Origin: a virus
Direction: 5' to 3' (one strand)
IMG/VR virus record: IMGVR_UViG_3300047297_000084
Coordinates: 1-35,986 of that record
DNA length: 35,986 nt
The notes beneath the pieces were generated by a model. The model saw only the letters and a list, made by a program, of their open reading frames with translations. It made no database searches and was not told the origin of the DNA. Position numbers and translations under genes: made by a program. Shown one piece after another: positions 6,481 to 35,868 of this stretch (position 1 is the stretch's first letter; every line of letters starts with the position of its first letter).

Positions 6481-6948
6481 ATGGAAGAGCAATGGAAATG
6501 GGTTAGCGGACAAGAAGGGCGGTACGAGGTATCGAACTTAGGCAGCGTCAAAAGCCACGTCAAAGCTGAACCAAAACTATTACGTCCGGGCAAAGCAAGT
6601 AACGGTTACTTGACGGTGTGCTTTCACACACCAAAACGACGTAGCTATCCTATTCAGCATCTCGTTGCGGAAGCGTTTATCGGGCCGCGTCCTGATGGCA
6701 TGTGCGTATTACACAGCGACGGTAACCGGACAAACAACGTCCTTAGCAATCTTCGCTACGGTACTTACGCAGACAACAACGCAGATATGCTTCGGCATAA
6801 CCGGCGCAAGTGGACAGAGAACCAAATACGAGAATTAAAACGCAGATTAGAGAACGGCGAATCGCCGCTGGCATTGGCTAAAGAATATGGGATGCACCAT
6901 CCACAGGTATACGGAATTAAAAACGGGAGATGTTATGCGTGGGTCTGA
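6481..6948 (+). CDS. NUMOD4/HNH endonuclease (homing-type)
   Basis: The 155-residue product begins with a NUMOD4-like segment (WKWVSGQEGRYEVSNLGSVK), followed by an HNH core (QHLVAEAFIG, then VLHSDGNRTNNVLSNLRYGT) with the histidine and two asparagines in the family spacing, and ends in a helix-turn-helix-like tail (ESPLALAKEYGMHHPQVYGI). This is the usual order of free-standing phage HNH endonucleases, which nick DNA and spread into neighbouring genes. Its stop overlaps the polymerase start by 14 nt, a favourite place for such enzymes. It is the first gene behind the rightward early promoter. It may be a selfish element or may have been adopted for replication or host DNA attack. Confidence 0.85.
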   Translation: MEEQWKWVSGQEGRYEVSNLGSVKSHVKAEPKLLRPGKASNGYLTVCFHTPKRRSYPIQHLVAEAFIGPRPDGMCVLHSDGNRTNNVLSNLRYGTYADNNADMLRHNRRKWTENQIRELKRRLENGESPLALAKEYGMHHPQVYGIKNGRCYAWV

Positions 6949-27302: not shown

Positions 27303-28313
27303 TTAAATGAGTTTATCCAACAGGGCCGCCGCATCTGCGACACGGCCTGTACGCGCAAGGCGCTGGGACGCTTTCTTTACATCGGTTGAACGTGTGTTGA
27401 CTTGAGAACCAGAAGAACCGGGTCGAACGATCCGCGCAACCTTTCGTGGCTGTGCTTTCGCTTTTTCCACTTTCTTCGAACCCTTATCAAACAACATAGC
27501 TTTGCGCAGGATTGAGACGTGAGTGGCCTGAACAAGTGCACTTAGGTCGCGTTCGCTAAACCCATTGTTTATAGCCCATTCACGAAGTTCCTTAGCTTCG
27601 CTTTGCATTGTACCTTCGTCTTTCCATTCAGGAATGACTTCCGGGAGTTTGGCGCGCTCTGACTGCACAATGTCAGCCAAGGCCCGCTGTTGCTCTTTGG
27701 TCATCTCTTGAGCAATCCGCTGTTGTTCAGTAGTAATAGCCTGAAGTTTAGCGGCTCGTTCCTGACGAGACTTATTCCAATGCCGTTCTAACCGCGCCGC
27801 CTCAATGGGGTCTTCGTTATAAAGATTGTCCCAATCAGGCTCAGCATCGGACTGCACCTCAAGTTGCGCTTTAAGCGCCGGTAACAGTTCCGCGTATTGA
27901 GCGCGTTCCATTCGGATCGCTTCGGCCTCACCATAGAACGACTTGCGTTCTTCGGCTAATGCCTGAGTTTTCCGTGTGTAATCCGAATAACGAGAATAAC
28001 CTTTCCGAAGTTCGTCAAGGGTGACTTCCAATTCCTTGCCATCATCTTTTACCTTGATGACTAGATCGTCAGGAAGTTCCTGTTCGATAACCTCTTCTGT
28101 GTCGTACTCTTCATCCGGGTCAGACTGTTCGTCTTCCTCTTCTTCCGAGTACTCCTCGGTTTCAGATTCTTCCGCATAGTCTTGAGCCTCTTCAGGCTCT
28201 TGCGCCTCGGCCTGATCTTGGTTGTCCTCGTCCGGGCCAAGCAGTTGGTCGATGGCTAGTGTTGCTTCGTGGAGGCCGATCCCCGCATGGGGGTTGCCGA
28301 CTTGTTCCGTCAT
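27303..28313 (-). CDS. scaffolding protein
   Basis: The 336-residue product is typical scaffold: a very acidic N-terminal third (residues about 28-75, EEEEDEQSDPDEEY and similar), a long helical charged middle (KTQALAEERKSFYGEAEAIR, KAQLEVQSDAEPDWDNLY, LERHWNKSRQERAAKLQ, ITTEQQRIAQEMTKEQ) and a basic C-terminus (KKVEKAKAQPRKVARIVRPG) that would contact the capsid protein. ATG at 28313 is preceded by AAGGTG; a GTG at 28322 would add only three residues. It lies immediately before the capsid gene. Confidence 0.85.
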   Translation of the reverse strand: MTEQVGNPHAGIGLHEATLAIDQLLGPDEDNQDQAEAQEPEEAQDYAEESETEEYSEEEEDEQSDPDEEYDTEEVIEQELPDDLVIKVKDDGKELEVTLDELRKGYSRYSDYTRKTQALAEERKSFYGEAEAIRMERAQYAELLPALKAQLEVQSDAEPDWDNLYNEDPIEAARLERHWNKSRQERAAKLQAITTEQQRIAQEMTKEQQRALADIVQSERAKLPEVIPEWKDEGTMQSEAKELREWAINNGFSERDLSALVQATHVSILRKAMLFDKGSKKVEKAKAQPRKVARIVRPGSSGSQVNTRSTDVKKASQRLARTGRVADAAALLDKLI

Positions 28314-28337
28314 ATATAGCACCTTTTTAATTAAATG

Positions 28338-28568: not shown

Positions 28569-30142
28569 CAGATTAACGGCTGGTAAACTGGGTTAGTTGT
28601 CATCGCGGGCTGGGCTTGGGGGGCAGCGCCCGCAGAGAGAAGACCGCTATACTCAGGCCGGAAGAACATAGCTTCCGGGCCAAAACCATACCGCTCATAG
28701 TCTAAGATGTTTGGATCAACGCGCATATCTTGGCCGCGAGCAAAGCCTACGCCCGTTCCAAATGGTGAGGCATATGGTGATCCTGCACCGCCACCGCCGC
28801 CGCCACCCAAAAGGTTGCCTAGAAGATCGGCTCCGATACCACCAATGGATATGAGTTGAGCTAGGGTTAGGCCAGTTCCGAGAACGCCATCCTTTGTAGA
28901 AGGGGGCGTTGTGGTCGAAAAAGTTGGCGGTAACGGGTTAAGCGTCCCACCAAGAGTTCCCCCAAGCACTTGGCCAAGCACGCCGCCGATGTTCTGTTCT
29001 TGCGGTCTCGTCCCCGTAACAACAATATCACCCGACATAGAAGGCTGTGGGTTGATAAGCGAAGACACCGCGCCAAGCGTATTGCCAAGGTTCTGTTCTT
29101 GTGGTCTCCTCCCAGTAACAACAATTTCGTCTGGCATGGGGGGCGACGTAGTTACAAGCGAAGGCAGCGCATTAAGCATCCCGCCAATGTTGAAATCTGG
29201 TCCAAGGTTTAATGCTGGATTTTCTCTTGCGGTAACAACGATTTCTTGAGGCTCTGTAGTAGATGGTTGTTCCGCTGGTGGGGATTGCGATGCTTGCGAT
29301 AACGCCGCTTGACCAATCACATTGCCCGCTGTTGACGCAAGAATACTAGGCGCGACTGCTCTCGTTGCGTTTACGAGGATGCCATCAAATGCGCCAGTAG
29401 GAATTGCTGCGCCAGTAGGAATTGCTGCGGTAGCGATGTTGCCGCCCGGTGTTGGTGTCGCTCCGGGAGTAGCTGGGCCAAACAATTGGCCGCTAGCATA
29501 GGCGCTGCCTCCGGCGATGGCCGCTCGCATCAACGCATCTTGAAGGTCGCGGCCCTGTAATCCACTTGAGACGGCAGAGCCAAGAGCCGCGCCTGCAATA
29601 GGGCCGATACCAGGGATAAAGGACGCGGCAAACGGAAGGACGTTATCTGCTAAAAAACCAAGACCGCTTTGCGACGGGGCAGCGCGGGCAACGTCAATAT
29701 ACCGGGTTCCGCCCACGCTTCCATCAGGGTTTATGGTACGTTCGCCAGTTTGTATCTTGAAGTTAGCGTCTCCGCCAAGTTCATCGCTAAGGCTCTGGGC
29801 CACGGCGACCGCTCGGTTTGCACCTTCAGCGCCAGCACCGCTGAAGATAACATTGCCTCCAGCGTCCACAACGCGAACCTCTTGGCCTTGGCCTACGTTA
29901 AACGTGTTGCCAGTTCCAAACGCAAGCGGGTCACCGTCAGCGGTTGGGCCGACGACAGACGTTCCGGGAGGCGGCGTGTTAGCAGCGATCCGGCGTGCTT
30001 CCCGCTCTTCATATGTCATTGGTGCAACAGCCTGTTGCGTCATCGGCATGACCGCCGCTTGACGGGGCGTGTCCATGATAGGCCCCGCCGCAGCCAAAAG
30101 TCCTTGTAGTGCAGGATCATCAAAATAATAATCTTCAAACAT
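28568..30142 (-). CDS. virion-associated protein with three TonB-box-like repeats
   Basis: A 524-residue protein between portal and scaffold genes. Residues 160-220 are Gly/Ala-rich and hydrophobic (FIPGIGPIAGAALGSAVSSG) and could associate with membranes. Residues 300-386 contain three related segments: EIVVTARENPALNLG, EIVVTGRRPQEQNLG (339) and DIVVTGTRPQEQNIG (372), spaced 39 and 33 residues. EIVVTGxR is the TonB-box-type N-terminal signature of TonB-dependent receptors of sphingomonads and caulobacters. A polyglycine run follows (about 446-452) and the C-terminus contains MRVDPNILDYERYGFGPEAM. No enzyme motif. It may be an ejected or internal protein. Function otherwise unknown. Confidence 0.6.
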   Translation of the reverse strand: MFEDYYFDDPALQGLLAAAGPIMDTPRQAAVMPMTQQAVAPMTYEEREARRIAANTPPPGTSVVGPTADGDPLAFGTGNTFNVGQGQEVRVVDAGGNVIFSGAGAEGANRAVAVAQSLSDELGGDANFKIQTGERTINPDGSVGGTRYIDVARAAPSQSGLGFLADNVLPFAASFIPGIGPIAGAALGSAVSSGLQGRDLQDALMRAAIAGGSAYASGQLFGPATPGATPTPGGNIATAAIPTGAAIPTGAFDGILVNATRAVAPSILASTAGNVIGQAALSQASQSPPAEQPSTTEPQEIVVTARENPALNLGPDFNIGGMLNALPSLVTTSPPMPDEIVVTGRRPQEQNLGNTLGAVSSLINPQPSMSGDIVVTGTRPQEQNIGGVLGQVLGGTLGGTLNPLPPTFSTTTPPSTKDGVLGTGLTLAQLISIGGIGADLLGNLLGGGGGGGAGSPYASPFGTGVGFARGQDMRVDPNILDYERYGFGPEAMFFRPEYSGLLSAGAAPQAQPAMTTNPVYQPLI

Positions 30143-32526
30143 TACATCATACCTTCCGGCGGGAGTTCAACGGGCATCGGCATTTCAGGTGGCATCTGCG
30201 TCGGCATCTGCGCTTGTTGCATTGCCTGAGCCATCTGTGCGTTTTGCACGGCCTGTTGGGCCTGCATAGCAGCGCGTTCCATCTCGCCCTGTTGCTTGAG
30301 AAGTTCACGGTCGCGCTGCATCATCGCTTCGATGTTGGCTGTGTTGACTTGCGCTCCGTACTTGGCCTCAAGTTCGGCTGCCTTAATCATCAGATCGGCA
30401 TCGAGTTTGTCGCGCTCACGGTCATCCTTGCGCAGCATGTCTTCGCGTTGCAACTCAAGTTCGGCTGCCTTCTTCTGGATGTCAGCGCGGATGGCTTCCA
30501 TCTGAACCTGAGACAGCATCTCTTCTGGTGTCGGCTGCGGTGGTGCAGGCGGTGGCGGAGGTGGCATCATGGCTGGGTCTTTGAAGAACACAGTCGGGTC
30601 TTTGTATCCAGCCAGCGCCATCATCTGAGATAGCGTATTGTAGTAACCCTGCATGTCAGCCAATGGCGCGCCCATCTGCATCAGCATCTCTTGCTTGGCT
30701 GCGACTTGACCTAAGAACGCCATCTTCTCTTCGTTGCTGCCAGTACCGATAGCGACGTTGACTACGACATCCATATTCGCGTCCCACGCACGTGGGTCAA
30801 TCGGGACGAACGTATTGCGCAGACGCACCATGCGCGGTGCATCTTGGTTCTTGGCGATAAGCTGCATCGACTTGCGGAACAGACCCTTCATGCCCGTCTC
30901 GGCAAAGATACGGCAAATCAGTTCGATATGTTGCGCTGCGGCAGTAATCGTGGCTGCGACAGCAGCGCGGGTCGAAGACTGAAGCGCGTTGGCATCGAGG
31001 CCAGATGCGGCCTTGGAAATACCTGTACGGTTCTCGCGCAGTTCGTCCATGTACTGCAACATCGGGAAGGCTTGCTGCCCAACGAACGGCATCACGAACG
31101 GCTGCACCATACCCGGTGCACGCATACGAATAATCCCACCGACTTCGGTGTTCATCACGTCTTCGATATTGACTTGGCCTTCAACAACACCCGTGCGTGG
31201 GTGGATCGACTGAGCCAAGCTGTCGAGCGTGTTACGCAGGATATTCGACTTGATAAGCTGAATGTCCATCGTCACGTCGGCAATCGACATGCCGAAGAAT
31301 GTGTGCGGCTCTGGATCGGGGCAGAAGTCTACGAACGGAATAAAGTCGCATGGCTCCCAATGCAGAACCTTGTTGGCGGAGCCAGCAACGCAGACGCGGC
31401 AAAGTTCCGCGATCCCGTCGCCGTCCATGTCAACATACACATAGCCCTCAATGTAGAGGACTTTGCGGGATGTCGTATCTGTGCGGCCTGTGATTTGAAC
31501 GAACGCTTGCGGGTTACGGTCGAAGGCTTCTTCGTTGCCGCCGAAGTCATCTAGCGTTTCGTAGCCAAGGTCTTGAACCTCATCGAAATCGTAGCCCATC
31601 TTCACAAGATCGGATACGGTAACGTAACGACGGTGGGCTACAAATTCGGCGGTCTCGATAGAGCGCGCACGGCGGTCAATCAAAAACTCTTCAGGCGGGA
31701 CGGACTGAACGCACAGACGGCCCTTCTCAACTGTACGGACTACTGTACAATCATATGTCGCAGGCGGAGGAGGGGCGGGCATACCCATCATTTCCGGTGG
31801 CATCATCGGCATTTCGCCGTAAGTAATCTCTACGTCCTTAACTTCGATATTGGCATCGGCCTGAAGGACGGAGAATGTAGCTTCGTCCAGACCCGTGAAG
31901 TAATGGGTCGTGACATCCTTATCGGTATTCCACCAAACTTTCATGATACCGTTCTTACGGATCAGAGCGTCCTTGAATGTGGAGTAGCATTCGCTGAATA
32001 GGTTGTTGTCGCGTGTCAGGCAGTAGTTGACGTAATCCGTCGCTTGCTGCGCACTCTCAACATCTTCTGGGCCGTTCGGCGCGAACTCGACGACGTTGTT
32101 CGCCGCGAAAAATACTTTCATAATCGACGGCATCATGGCCTGTACAGTATCCCGTACATCCATAGACATCGCCTGCGACCGGCCTTCCTCTTCGTTTCCG
32201 AAAGGTTCGCCCTTATAATACTGGCCCGCAAGCGCACGCTCCGGGCTGATTACGTCGTCGATATATTCTTGGGCATCGTCAATCTCGGCGATGATGATGT
32301 TCTGAAGTTCTTCTTCAGATACAGGCTCTTCTACCTGCTCGTCTTCCATTTCAGGCTCTTCGATAGAAATCTCTGTGCCGTCGGCCAGTTCCATCGAAGT
32401 TTCATTGTACATGTCTTCGCTATCGCCGTTTTCAGAGTTGGTGTTAGGAACCCCGGTATCCTGATACATACCTTGGCTCTTAGCCATCTCCGCCTTATCC
32501 GGCTTACGGTTATTGCGATATGCCAT
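30142..32526 (-). CDS. portal protein (SU10/P22-like)
   Basis: A 794-residue portal. After an acidic N-terminus (EEPEMEDEQVEEPVSEEEL) comes the portal core: SPERALAGQYYKGEPFG, RDTVQAMMPSIMKVFFAANN, YVNYCLTRDNNLF, KDALIRKNGIMKVWW, FLIDRRARSIETAEFVAHRR, FFGMSIADVTMDIQLIKSNI with LRNTLDSLAQSIHPRTGVVE, and ENRTGISKAASGLDANALQS. The last 150 residues are a Pro-rich hinge (PPPPPPAPPQPTPEEM) and a long Gln/Met/Ala-rich coiled-coil barrel (RADIQKKAAELELQREDMLR; QAQQAVQNAQMAQAMQQAQM), the usual P22-like barrel region. It forms the DNA entry ring and docks TerL. Confidence 0.9.
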   Translation of the reverse strand: MAYRNNRKPDKAEMAKSQGMYQDTGVPNTNSENGDSEDMYNETSMELADGTEISIEEPEMEDEQVEEPVSEEELQNIIIAEIDDAQEYIDDVISPERALAGQYYKGEPFGNEEEGRSQAMSMDVRDTVQAMMPSIMKVFFAANNVVEFAPNGPEDVESAQQATDYVNYCLTRDNNLFSECYSTFKDALIRKNGIMKVWWNTDKDVTTHYFTGLDEATFSVLQADANIEVKDVEITYGEMPMMPPEMMGMPAPPPPATYDCTVVRTVEKGRLCVQSVPPEEFLIDRRARSIETAEFVAHRRYVTVSDLVKMGYDFDEVQDLGYETLDDFGGNEEAFDRNPQAFVQITGRTDTTSRKVLYIEGYVYVDMDGDGIAELCRVCVAGSANKVLHWEPCDFIPFVDFCPDPEPHTFFGMSIADVTMDIQLIKSNILRNTLDSLAQSIHPRTGVVEGQVNIEDVMNTEVGGIIRMRAPGMVQPFVMPFVGQQAFPMLQYMDELRENRTGISKAASGLDANALQSSTRAAVAATITAAAQHIELICRIFAETGMKGLFRKSMQLIAKNQDAPRMVRLRNTFVPIDPRAWDANMDVVVNVAIGTGSNEEKMAFLGQVAAKQEMLMQMGAPLADMQGYYNTLSQMMALAGYKDPTVFFKDPAMMPPPPPPAPPQPTPEEMLSQVQMEAIRADIQKKAAELELQREDMLRKDDRERDKLDADLMIKAAELEAKYGAQVNTANIEAMMQRDRELLKQQGEMERAAMQAQQAVQNAQMAQAMQQAQMPTQMPPEMPMPVELPPEGMM

Positions 32527-33167: not shown

Positions 33168-33590
33168 CTATTTCTTTGGCGTATACGCGCCGCGCTCACT
33201 CAAATACACTATGGCCTTGTAAAGAATAGTTGTATTCTCTCTCGCGTGGCCTAGTACCAAATTACACTTCGAGCATAGTACGCCGCGAACCTCACCCGTC
33301 TCATGGTTATGGTCAACGACAACTGCTCGTTTTGCCTTATACGCTAATGCGGTAGATAATTCTACCTCGCAAATAGCACAAGCAAAATTCTGGTTGGTGA
33401 TGTGGCTATGGTACTCATCTAGGCTGATGCCGTATCGCTGTTTGAGGTTGCGAGCTAGGTGGTAGTCTGGGCGTGTAGCGCAGAAGCGGCGTTGGTGTTC
33501 GCGCACGCACGGCTTACAGGCGCGTCTGTGGAAGTAGAAGTCGTCGCTCGGCTTTTCTTCGCCGCACTCTACACAAGTCTTTGTTTCCAC
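33168..33590 (-). CDS. endonuclease VII-like HNH nuclease
   Basis: The 140-residue product contains two zinc-type cysteine pairs (CVECGEEKPSDDF; CKPC) and the T4 endonuclease VII-type core: NLKQRYGISLDEYHSHITNQ, FACAICEVEL, VVVDHNHETGEVRGVLCSKC, NLVLGHARENTTILYKAIVY. Catalytic DHNHETG and the zinc-binding Cys pairs are intact. The family resolves branched DNA. It starts with GTG at 33590 (AAGGGAG ribosome-binding site) and is the first gene of the late operon, downstream of terL, a place where HNH nucleases often help packaging. Confidence 0.85.
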   Translation of the reverse strand: METKTCVECGEEKPSDDFYFHRRACKPCVREHQRRFCATRPDYHLARNLKQRYGISLDEYHSHITNQNFACAICEVELSTALAYKAKRAVVVDHNHETGEVRGVLCSKCNLVLGHARENTTILYKAIVYLSERGAYTPKK

Positions 33591-33795: not shown

Positions 33796-35201
33796 ACAAT
33801 GCCCCGTATATTTCTACGCAGCGCCCCTGACTTGTTGGCCATCGAGTATCCATGCATAATTGTAGATACATCGGTGGCCAAGCATAAGCACAGCGCATCC
33901 GCCTTATCCGGCGATGGTAGTCCGCGCTTCTTCATGCTCTCCTTACTCTCGACCTGCATCTTACCCGACGAGGTAAAGGTGTAACGCGGTGACGCCAACT
34001 CGGCGAATAACTGTTCATCCTTCGGTATCTTCACGTCGCGGTTCGCCAGCCATCCCTTACACTTGAACCACAACTCGGCGCGTAGGTTGGCGTAAGTGCC
34101 TTTCATTGCTGGGCTTTCTGCGACGTTGATCCCACGCGCTGGTAGGCCCAGTTCGCGCAGACGGTCAAGCACACCGGCTCCCAACCCGATACTATCGACC
34201 AATATTTCTACTGGCTGCTCCGATGGCGGCAGCGCCTCATACTCCGCCACAACCGCGCCGGTTAGTTGCATAAGGTCCAGACCTTTCCAAGTCTGTATCT
34301 CTTCGACAACTGGGCCGCGCCGTTTAGCGAGGGCACTGGCGTCGGAACCCATACGCGCTACGTCTAGGCCCCAGACACTCTTCGTCTGCTTGGCGATCTT
34401 AATCTCGCGGTTCATAGCCCCGTCAATCAACTCGACAGGAATGACCGTATCTTCTTCACGCGGCGGGAAGTTACCAAGGACACGCACATGATACGCGGGG
34501 CTGTCTTCGCCGTACCGTAGCTGCATCTCTCGGACAAACGCATCGGACACACGCGGACTATCAAGACAACTGACATGGAAGGTTTTCCATTCACCCTTCA
34601 GACGGTTGTGCGTATCGTAGAACAACCCGCTGTTTCGGGTAGGGTTCCCCAGAAGAAGCGTCGTCGCATTATGGCCCGACATAGAACCGGACGCAGCTTC
34701 GTACACACTCTCTGGAATACCTGACGCCTCATCCGCTACAAGAAGCACGTTGTCGGCGTGGATACCCTGCAACGCTTCCGGCGTTTCTGCGCGGCTCGTT
34801 CTGGCGGAGATAAAGGCTTCACTAGACGCAGCCTTCAGTTCAATACGGTCGGCCTTTACTTCGATCAGAACCTTGAGCACGTCAGGTAGTTCATTCACCC
34901 ATCGCTTCAGTTCCGCGAACATCGCATCGAACAACTGTGCGGATGTTGGCGCAGTCACAACAACCTTCACTGGATACCGCGTCAGGAAGTAATGCAGCAT
35001 GGCCCAGCTTGCGGCTGTAGACTTACCTACACCGTGGCCGGAGCGCACAGAGATACGACGTTCCCCGGAGCTAATCGCTTTCAGAAACTCGATTTGCCAA
35101 GGGTCTGGCTTCGTTCGTAGAATATCGCGCACGAACCCGACGGGATCATCGCGGTACTTCTTCAGAAACTCCAGAAAGAAGTTTGGCTCAGACTTCGGCA
35201 T
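33792..35201 (-). CDS. terL: terminase large subunit
   Basis: A 469-residue packaging motor and nuclease. N-terminal ATPase: DPWQIEFLKAI, Walker A-type GHGVGKST near residue 55, VVVTAPTSAQLFDAMFAELK and Walker B VLLVADEASGIPE near 155. C-terminal RNase H-like nuclease: GLDVARMGSDAS near 270, DSIGLGAGVLD near 335, and SPDKADALCLCLA. ATG at 35201 has a GGGGAGA ribosome-binding site and overlaps the recombinase gene by 14 bp. terS is on the other strand near the opposite end of the window. It belongs to the TerL type with a shortened ATPase common in podovirus-like phages; headful or cos packaging cannot be told from the protein alone. Confidence 0.95.
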   Translation of the reverse strand: MPKSEPNFFLEFLKKYRDDPVGFVRDILRTKPDPWQIEFLKAISSGERRISVRSGHGVGKSTAASWAMLHYFLTRYPVKVVVTAPTSAQLFDAMFAELKRWVNELPDVLKVLIEVKADRIELKAASSEAFISARTSRAETPEALQGIHADNVLLVADEASGIPESVYEAASGSMSGHNATTLLLGNPTRNSGLFYDTHNRLKGEWKTFHVSCLDSPRVSDAFVREMQLRYGEDSPAYHVRVLGNFPPREEDTVIPVELIDGAMNREIKIAKQTKSVWGLDVARMGSDASALAKRRGPVVEEIQTWKGLDLMQLTGAVVAEYEALPPSEQPVEILVDSIGLGAGVLDRLRELGLPARGINVAESPAMKGTYANLRAELWFKCKGWLANRDVKIPKDEQLFAELASPRYTFTSSGKMQVESKESMKKRGLPSPDKADALCLCLATDVSTIMHGYSMANKSGALRRNIRGIV

Positions 35202-35868
35202 TCTTATCTCCCCTAATTACACGTGCGATTGTTTGGTGACTTACCGTGATACCATGACGCTTTGCTACGATAATAGCAATATCGCGGTAGCTATGACCTT
35301 TAACGCGTGCGGCCTTCATTGTTATCAATGCGTCCTGCGCGTTTGGTTCTGGATGCAGCTTGGCCTTGCGGCCTACGCCTGTCTTCTTAAAACCAAATGG
35401 CACTTTGCCGCCGACGTATCCGCCCTGCGAACTCTTCGCTCTCTTACCGGCGGTGACACGTTCTCTGATACGGCGGCGCTCCTCGCCGGAGAAGACGGCC
35501 ATGATCTCTAGCATGAACCGTCCGTTCGGGTTGGCTTTGTCCATGACATTGCCGTAGCCGTTGATGATTAGGTTGATGTTGGCCGTCTCCCAGTCGGCGA
35601 TGACGTTGAGCGCATCTCGCGCATCGCGGAACATACGGTCTAGCTTCGATACGATGATAGTATCGCCGGGCCGGAGGAACGCCAGCTTGCAGCCTTCTTC
35701 TCGGCGCAGCAGTGGGACGCCGCCGGAGACGCCGCGCTCTTCGTAGATATGCTCCAGTTCCAAATTATGTGTGAGCGCGATGCCTTGTATTTGGCGTGCT
35801 TGATCATCGAGTGATGTGTTCTCAATCTGGTCTTCAGTCGAGACGCGAGTGTATCCAAAAACTGCCAA
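35188..35868 (-). CDS. serine recombinase (resolvase/invertase family)
   Basis: A 226-residue small serine recombinase. The N-terminal catalytic domain has GYTRVSTEDQ with nucleophile Ser10, QARQIQGIAL, FLRPGDTIIVSKLDRMFRD (conserved Arg), FMLEIMAVFSGEERRRIRER with the long E helix, and a C-terminal HTH (RDIAIIVAKRHGITVSHQTI, ARVIRG). Length and a short C-terminal domain fit resolvase/invertase rather than the large phiC31-type integrases. Translation starts at TTG with a GGGAGA ribosome-binding site. It is cotranscribed with and overlaps terL, an uncommon partnership. Possible roles: multimer or circular-genome resolution, inversion, or integration. Direct TGTTACA repeats cover its promoter, suggesting regulation. 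Confidence 0.85.
   Translation of the reverse strand: MAVFGYTRVSTEDQIENTSLDDQARQIQGIALTHNLELEHIYEERGVSGGVPLLRREEGCKLAFLRPGDTIIVSKLDRMFRDARDALNVIADWETANINLIINGYGNVMDKANPNGRFMLEIMAVFSGEERRRIRERVTAGKRAKSSQGGYVGGKVPFGFKKTGVGRKAKLHPEPNAQDALITMKAARVKGHSYRDIAIIVAKRHGITVSHQTIARVIRGDKNAEV

Follow-up and report, generated by a model that had tools for sequence, protein, structure and literature searches.

TonB boxes are degenerate and, in receptors and colicins alike, lie near the N-terminus; the box of FhuA comprises residues 7–11. Among bacteriocins, colicin M carries its TonB box, ETLTV, within an unstructured domain, and infection by phage T1 likewise requires TonB (PMC11658791). Colicin B needs a TonB box of its own to cross FepA, through which it also carries coupled ssDNA (PMC8546555). 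A literature search, with most subscription journals outside its coverage, found no account of a TonB box in a virion or ejection protein of a phage, and for TonB box and tape measure together it returned nothing but a paper on T5, in which the box is that of the receptor itself.

The locus described here encodes a phage protein, P0001, with internal copies of a motif that resembles a receptor TonB box. It lies in a viral stretch of 35,986 nucleotides (IMG/VR record IMGVR_UViG_3300047297_000084), referred to below as the window. P0001 shares with TonB-dependent receptors (for example those with the alphaproteobacterial box DEIVVTGxR) the string [DE]-[IV]-V-V-T-[AG], an R two residues on and a flexible context, but in P0001 the motif is not N-terminal, it is present in several copies, no signal peptide was seen and there is neither plug nor barrel. 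The proposed behavior of P0001 also resembles that of the group B colicins, klebicin C and the pyocins with their own TonB box, in which an incoming protein presents the strand in an unstructured region. Unlike these secreted bacteriocins, P0001 is a phage protein; its motif is central and repeated, and any TonB dependence is putative. Our preferred reading, to which we assign a probability of about 0.4, is that P0001 is a virion protein, ejected or internal, whose motif copies form a multivalent mimic of the TonB box. This value is held down because looser variants of the motif fit degenerate TonB boxes and any beta-augmentation site equally well.

P0001 and its genomic setting

The features of the locus, all on the minus strand, are as follows.

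30142–32526, minus: SU10-type portal protein (PF23899, E 3e-209), upstream of P0001
28568–30142, minus: P0001, the 524-aa motif-bearing protein, which shares a few bases with the end of the portal gene; 80 viral loci encode homologues
29678–29971, minus: N-terminal folded domain, ~residues 58–155, pLDDT ~82–94 (AlphaFold; GB2A gp065c profile match)
29483–29665, minus: Gly/Ala-rich hydrophobic helices, ~residues 160–220
29345–29383, minus: degenerate motif copy 4, GILVNATRAVAPS, residues 254–266
29219–29245, minus: motif copy 1, EIVVTAREN, residues 300–308
29090–29128, minus: motif copy 2, EIVVTGRRPQEQN, residues 339–351, preceded by D
28991–29029, minus: motif copy 3, DIVVTGTRPQEQN, residues 372–384
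28991–29170, minus: 99-bp tandem repeat, 1.8 copies, 75% match (TRF)
28571–28909, minus: conserved C-terminal region, residues 412–524, with DYERYGFGPEAMFF (invariant alignment columns; short match in GB2A gp065c)
27303–28322, minus: head scaffolding protein (phrog_3927, E 2.3e-57), ~245 bp downstream of P0001
26325–27287, minus: SU10-type major capsid protein (PF17236, E 8e-103), downstream of P0001

The initial annotation had described three motif copies, a Gly/Ala-rich segment and a place beside the portal gene. Each of these observations held up, and to them are added the coding strand, which is minus (the plus-strand frame across the region contains many stops), and the degenerate fourth copy, at whose equivalent place homologues have GDIVVNAAR or GDIVVTAAR. 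The three strong copies occupy residues 300–384 of 524 (28991–29245), internal rather than near the N-terminus, a placement that weighs against the mimic, with spacings of 39 and 33 residues. Only copy 2 fits the full phrase [DE]EIVVT[AG]xR; copies 1 and 3 nearly do. Copies 2 and 3 are related by duplication, because the 99-bp tandem repeat covers both. A codon-by-codon comparison of these two shows no change in I-V-V or G and a synonymous one in T, whereas the residues just before the core (D/G, E/D, R/T) and most downstream positions differ. The comparison of copies 1 and 2 gives the same pattern at greater divergence.

P0001 itself has no match in Pfam, and the plug domain and 22-strand barrel of a TonB-dependent receptor are thus absent by that search. 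Nor does it match any PHROG profile, that of the tail tape measure protein included, which 1 of 38 P0001 relatives matches weakly (E 0.0017). An AlphaFold model built on an alignment of 38 homologues is weak overall (pTM 0.32), and its sole confident domain is the one at residues ~58–155. Over the motif region (residues 295–390) the pLDDT is ~36–57 in ten-residue blocks and no secondary structure is assigned; the model thus predicts a flexible segment, as expected for a TonB box. Foldseek searches of the PDB gave no convincing match, with nothing below E 0.17; in BFVD four phage proteins were matched, all of them uncharacterised or unnamed.

Portal, P0001 and scaffold follow one another in a near-constant order among the IMG/VR homologues: 63/67 portal neighbours and 65/65 scaffold neighbours lie within 1.5 kb. 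In named relatives, among them Sinorhizobium phage phiM5, Pelagibacter phage HTVC106P and Methylophilales phage Venkman, the portal–scaffold gap holds only small genes (up to 98 aa among those read), so P0001 is an extra gene at this position. We regard P0001 as a probable virion protein, internal or ejected, of a podovirus-like phage of the SU10 type; we infer its virion location and its ejection from synteny and from the annotation of a distant homologue, described below.

Several other features were recorded in and around these loci. A serine resolvase/invertase (PF00239, E 4e-29) is encoded at 35188–35868, at the window end, and overlaps the start of the terminase gene. The products of 6481–6948 and 33168–33590 resemble HNH-type homing endonucleases, as judged by eye only. 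The 38.6-kb contig IMGVR_UViG_3300020042_005023 encodes two different P0001-family members (L047 and L056), each behind a portal gene; either the contig has a second head module or its assembly is chimeric.

Conservation of the motif in the P0001 family

Across the relatives of P0001 encoded at the 80 IMG/VR loci, the strict pattern [DE].[IVL][IVT]V[TS][AG] was matched 81 times over 46.6k aa of family sequence and not once over the 470k aa of other ORFs (at least 100 aa, from the same loci), so the motif in this family is not due to chance. Strict copies number 0–5 per homologue; the cassettes differ and the flanks and codons vary, with the core [DE]-I-V-V-[TS]-[AG]-x-R kept. A second scan of the family linkers, in which only [DE]I was fixed and everything downstream left free, yielded 107 distinct sites. 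V is found at +3 in 79 of them, against a linker background of 8%, and at +2 in 71; A or G stands at +5 in 76; and R stands at +7 in 36, against a background of 1.5%.

The same picture emerges at the codon level from 86 copies with <90% nucleotide identity. The I is invariant, ATT and ATC being used about equally, and V at +3, which the pattern requires, is written with all four codons; the flanks have ~3 bits of entropy. Because the core is kept while flanks, copy number and codons vary, the motif behaves like a selected short linear motif, here in a linker predicted to be disordered. It had been asked at the outset whether related phages retain the motifs while the flanks diverge, or lack them: most homologues do the former, and a few relatives keep degenerate copies only (L037, L043, L050, L055 and L077), which we count against the mimic.

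P0001 gave no tblastn match to named phages at E up to 1. A path to an isolate was provided by L146, an 875-aa relative with a different C-terminus, which led to gp065c of Caulobacter phage GB2A. The N-terminal domain of gp065c aligns with the P0001 family profile (hhalign 99.2%, E 8e-20). It has one clear motif copy (VDEIVVTPSQP, with degenerate copies beside it in the linker), and it also matches P0001 briefly at the GFGPEAMFF region, where DWTQYGMGPEASFF takes the place of DYERYGFGPEAMFF. In contrast to P0001, gp065c possesses an extra C-terminal GPGTGRSDSIKANLSDGEYVIDA domain and its gene lies within a tail/lysin module. Its motif also differs in ending in P and in having neither the A/G nor the R, and this too counts against the mimic. 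The protein is annotated as a tail length tape measure protein and is encoded three genes before a 'lytic tail protein' in the same cluster; it matches the tape-measure PHROG only through its C-terminal part. This annotation is the sole isolate-derived hint of a tail or ejection module for the P0001 family.

A domain at the C-terminus, around GPGTGRSDDIPAVLSDGEYVIDA, is shared by phage proteins that bear a tape-measure annotation (L467 5001–5306, L468 4001–4183 and L146). A Cys-rich phage protein with clustered CxxC (L470 2468–4387, MW202545) carries GEVEITGQRE and has a C-terminal domain resembling that of L146.

The phrase in receptors and in other phage proteins

In four alphaproteobacterial genomes, plug-domain receptors carry D-[ED]-[IV]-V-V-T-[GA]-[ST]-R just before the plug. 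These boxes were taken without forcing the phrase and were obtained from 24/30 loci, though a few of these came from an incorrect frame or position. The P0001 core matches this alphaproteobacterial consensus. The initial annotation had regarded the phrase as a marker of the TonB-box end of such receptors, and this stands insofar as it matches their TonB box and plug start. The short form EIVVTGxRP, on the other hand, is not specific: about half of its 80 loci are CapD/PglF-type proteins (DIEIVVTGLRPGEKLYEEL) and ~14 are receptors, by eye. We dropped EIVVTGxRP as a TonB marker because these cytoplasmic sequences dominate its matches.

The longer phrase gives a different result. Among 219 genomes, mostly Pseudomonadota and with the receptor class assigned by eye, [DE]EIVVT[AG]x[RS] has 28 matches, 26 of them in receptor-like N-termini, and for the R-type, [DE]EIVVT[AG]xR, the figure is 25/26. 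The R-type phrase is absent from 299 Bacillota genomes, to which their lower G+C may contribute. By these counts the full phrase is nearly receptor-specific in cellular genomes. With CapD/PglF-type sequences dominating the short phrase and receptors the long one, the concern that the phrase is common in cytoplasmic proteins therefore applies to the former and not to the latter. The genome scan with the P0001 family profile found no relative by tblastn, and this route therefore yielded neither a prophage nor a host.

IMG/VR was also scanned with the long phrase, using two permutations of the same codons as controls and scoring a match as in frame when it fell in the longest frame. The real phrase gave 52 distinct matches in viral contigs, 46 in frame (43 R and 3 S), vs 22 matches with 11 in frame (4 R and 7 S) for the first permutation and 12 with 6 in frame (2 R and 4 S) for the second. 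The excess over the permuted controls is clear, and the R:S contrast holds after removal of the P0001 family and the receptors (p 5e-5). The variant with D at the second place has 15 in-frame matches (12 R and 3 S).

By PHROG profile, 8 of the 40 carriers outside the family are tape measures (L156, L161, L171, L183, L188, L198, L392 and L394). Further carriers are tail tube proteins (L166, with near-identical relatives, and L176), a baseplate hub (L175), an internal virion lysozyme (L182) and an endolysin (L149); the control carriers are portal, terminase, helicase, protease and other proteins. Carriers of the real phrase are often proteins that traverse the envelope. The tape-measure share (8/40 vs 0/17 controls counted, 14 scanned; Fisher p 0.09) is suggestive only. 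The tape measures with EEIVVTAxR (e.g. L183, L188, L156 and L392) share the phrase with P0001 and some have it beside Gly/Ala-rich segments, but they belong to unrelated protein families of long-tailed phages. L183 and L188, which are 56% identical, have two copies each.

The motif is absent from the tape measure of Marinobacter phage PS3, a 43% relative of a two-copy carrier, and this is counted against the mimic. Relatives of the baseplate hub in phages of Komagataeibacter and Acetobacter, and of the tail-tube proteins in Cr30, phiM19 and DLP_6, lack it as well; it is therefore not ancestral to those families. Among the T4-like tail-tube family proteins, DEIVVTxxR is N-terminal in L166, L172 and L190 but stands at the opposite end, the C-terminus, in L176. 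Single copies within folded domains (the L195/L408 tail protein, L402 terminase, L205 major tail protein and L405 tail fibre) look like chance and were set aside.

Possible functions of the motif

The proposed mechanism is as follows. A Pro/Ala/Gly-rich disordered linker would display several beta-strand motifs, [DE]-I-V-V-[TS]-[AG]-x-R, that copy the TonB box and plug start of the host's TonB-dependent receptors. After adsorption P0001 would enter the periplasm, where at least one motif copy could pair as an extra strand with the C-terminal domain of TonB. ExbBD-energised TonB might then pull or anchor the ejected P0001, or be kept from its receptors, and TonB engagement would help DNA entry. 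TonB binding by P0001 and its effect on entry are proposed by analogy.

The main rival, which we consider possible but doubtful, is that the motif serves in beta-augmentation with a partner of the phage's own (portal, scaffold, tail or another ejection protein) or with some host protein that is not TonB, its likeness to a TonB box reflecting shared beta-strand chemistry. The fixed position of the gene between portal and scaffold is in keeping with this, multivalent docking would suit the variable copy number, and the variants EIVVSKYRP, DILVNAAR and VDEIVVTP keep the strand and not the whole receptor phrase. However, the same phrase, R included, is found in tape measures, hubs and tail-tube proteins that are unrelated and have no obvious virion partner in common, and R is strongly preferred at +7, as in receptors.

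That the motif is instead a structural beta-strand of a folded or oligomeric P0001 assembly, missed by a monomer prediction, seems improbable. Hairpin-like contexts around some copies (e.g. NVVDGVDQDTGDIVVSKYRP) and the low overall confidence of the model would agree with it, but copy number and spacing vary freely, P, A and G abound in the linkers, and the motif region has a low pLDDT with the 38-sequence alignment. Passive duplication of a low-complexity linker with no binding function deserves little credence: copies 2 and 3 do stem from a tandem duplication and the family is mosaic, yet residues are kept across copies through many synonymous codons while flanks are free, and the phrase recurs in unrelated proteins.

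We return to the reading of P0001 as a TonB-box mimic. If it functions as proposed, the motif would represent a novel form of bacteriocin-style TonB-box mimicry. The broader idea, that Gram-negative phages widely place such mimics on envelope-crossing proteins (tape measures, hubs, tail-tube and podoviral internal proteins) and so couple genome delivery to TonB–ExbBD independently of the receptor's own box, we judge unlikely. The driving force for the passage of phage proteins and DNA across the periplasm is poorly understood. If true, a TonB-box mimic on ejected proteins would provide a concrete, mutable handle for TonB energy input, would extend the bacteriocin trick to phages, and would make TonB-dependent phages predictable from sequence alone.
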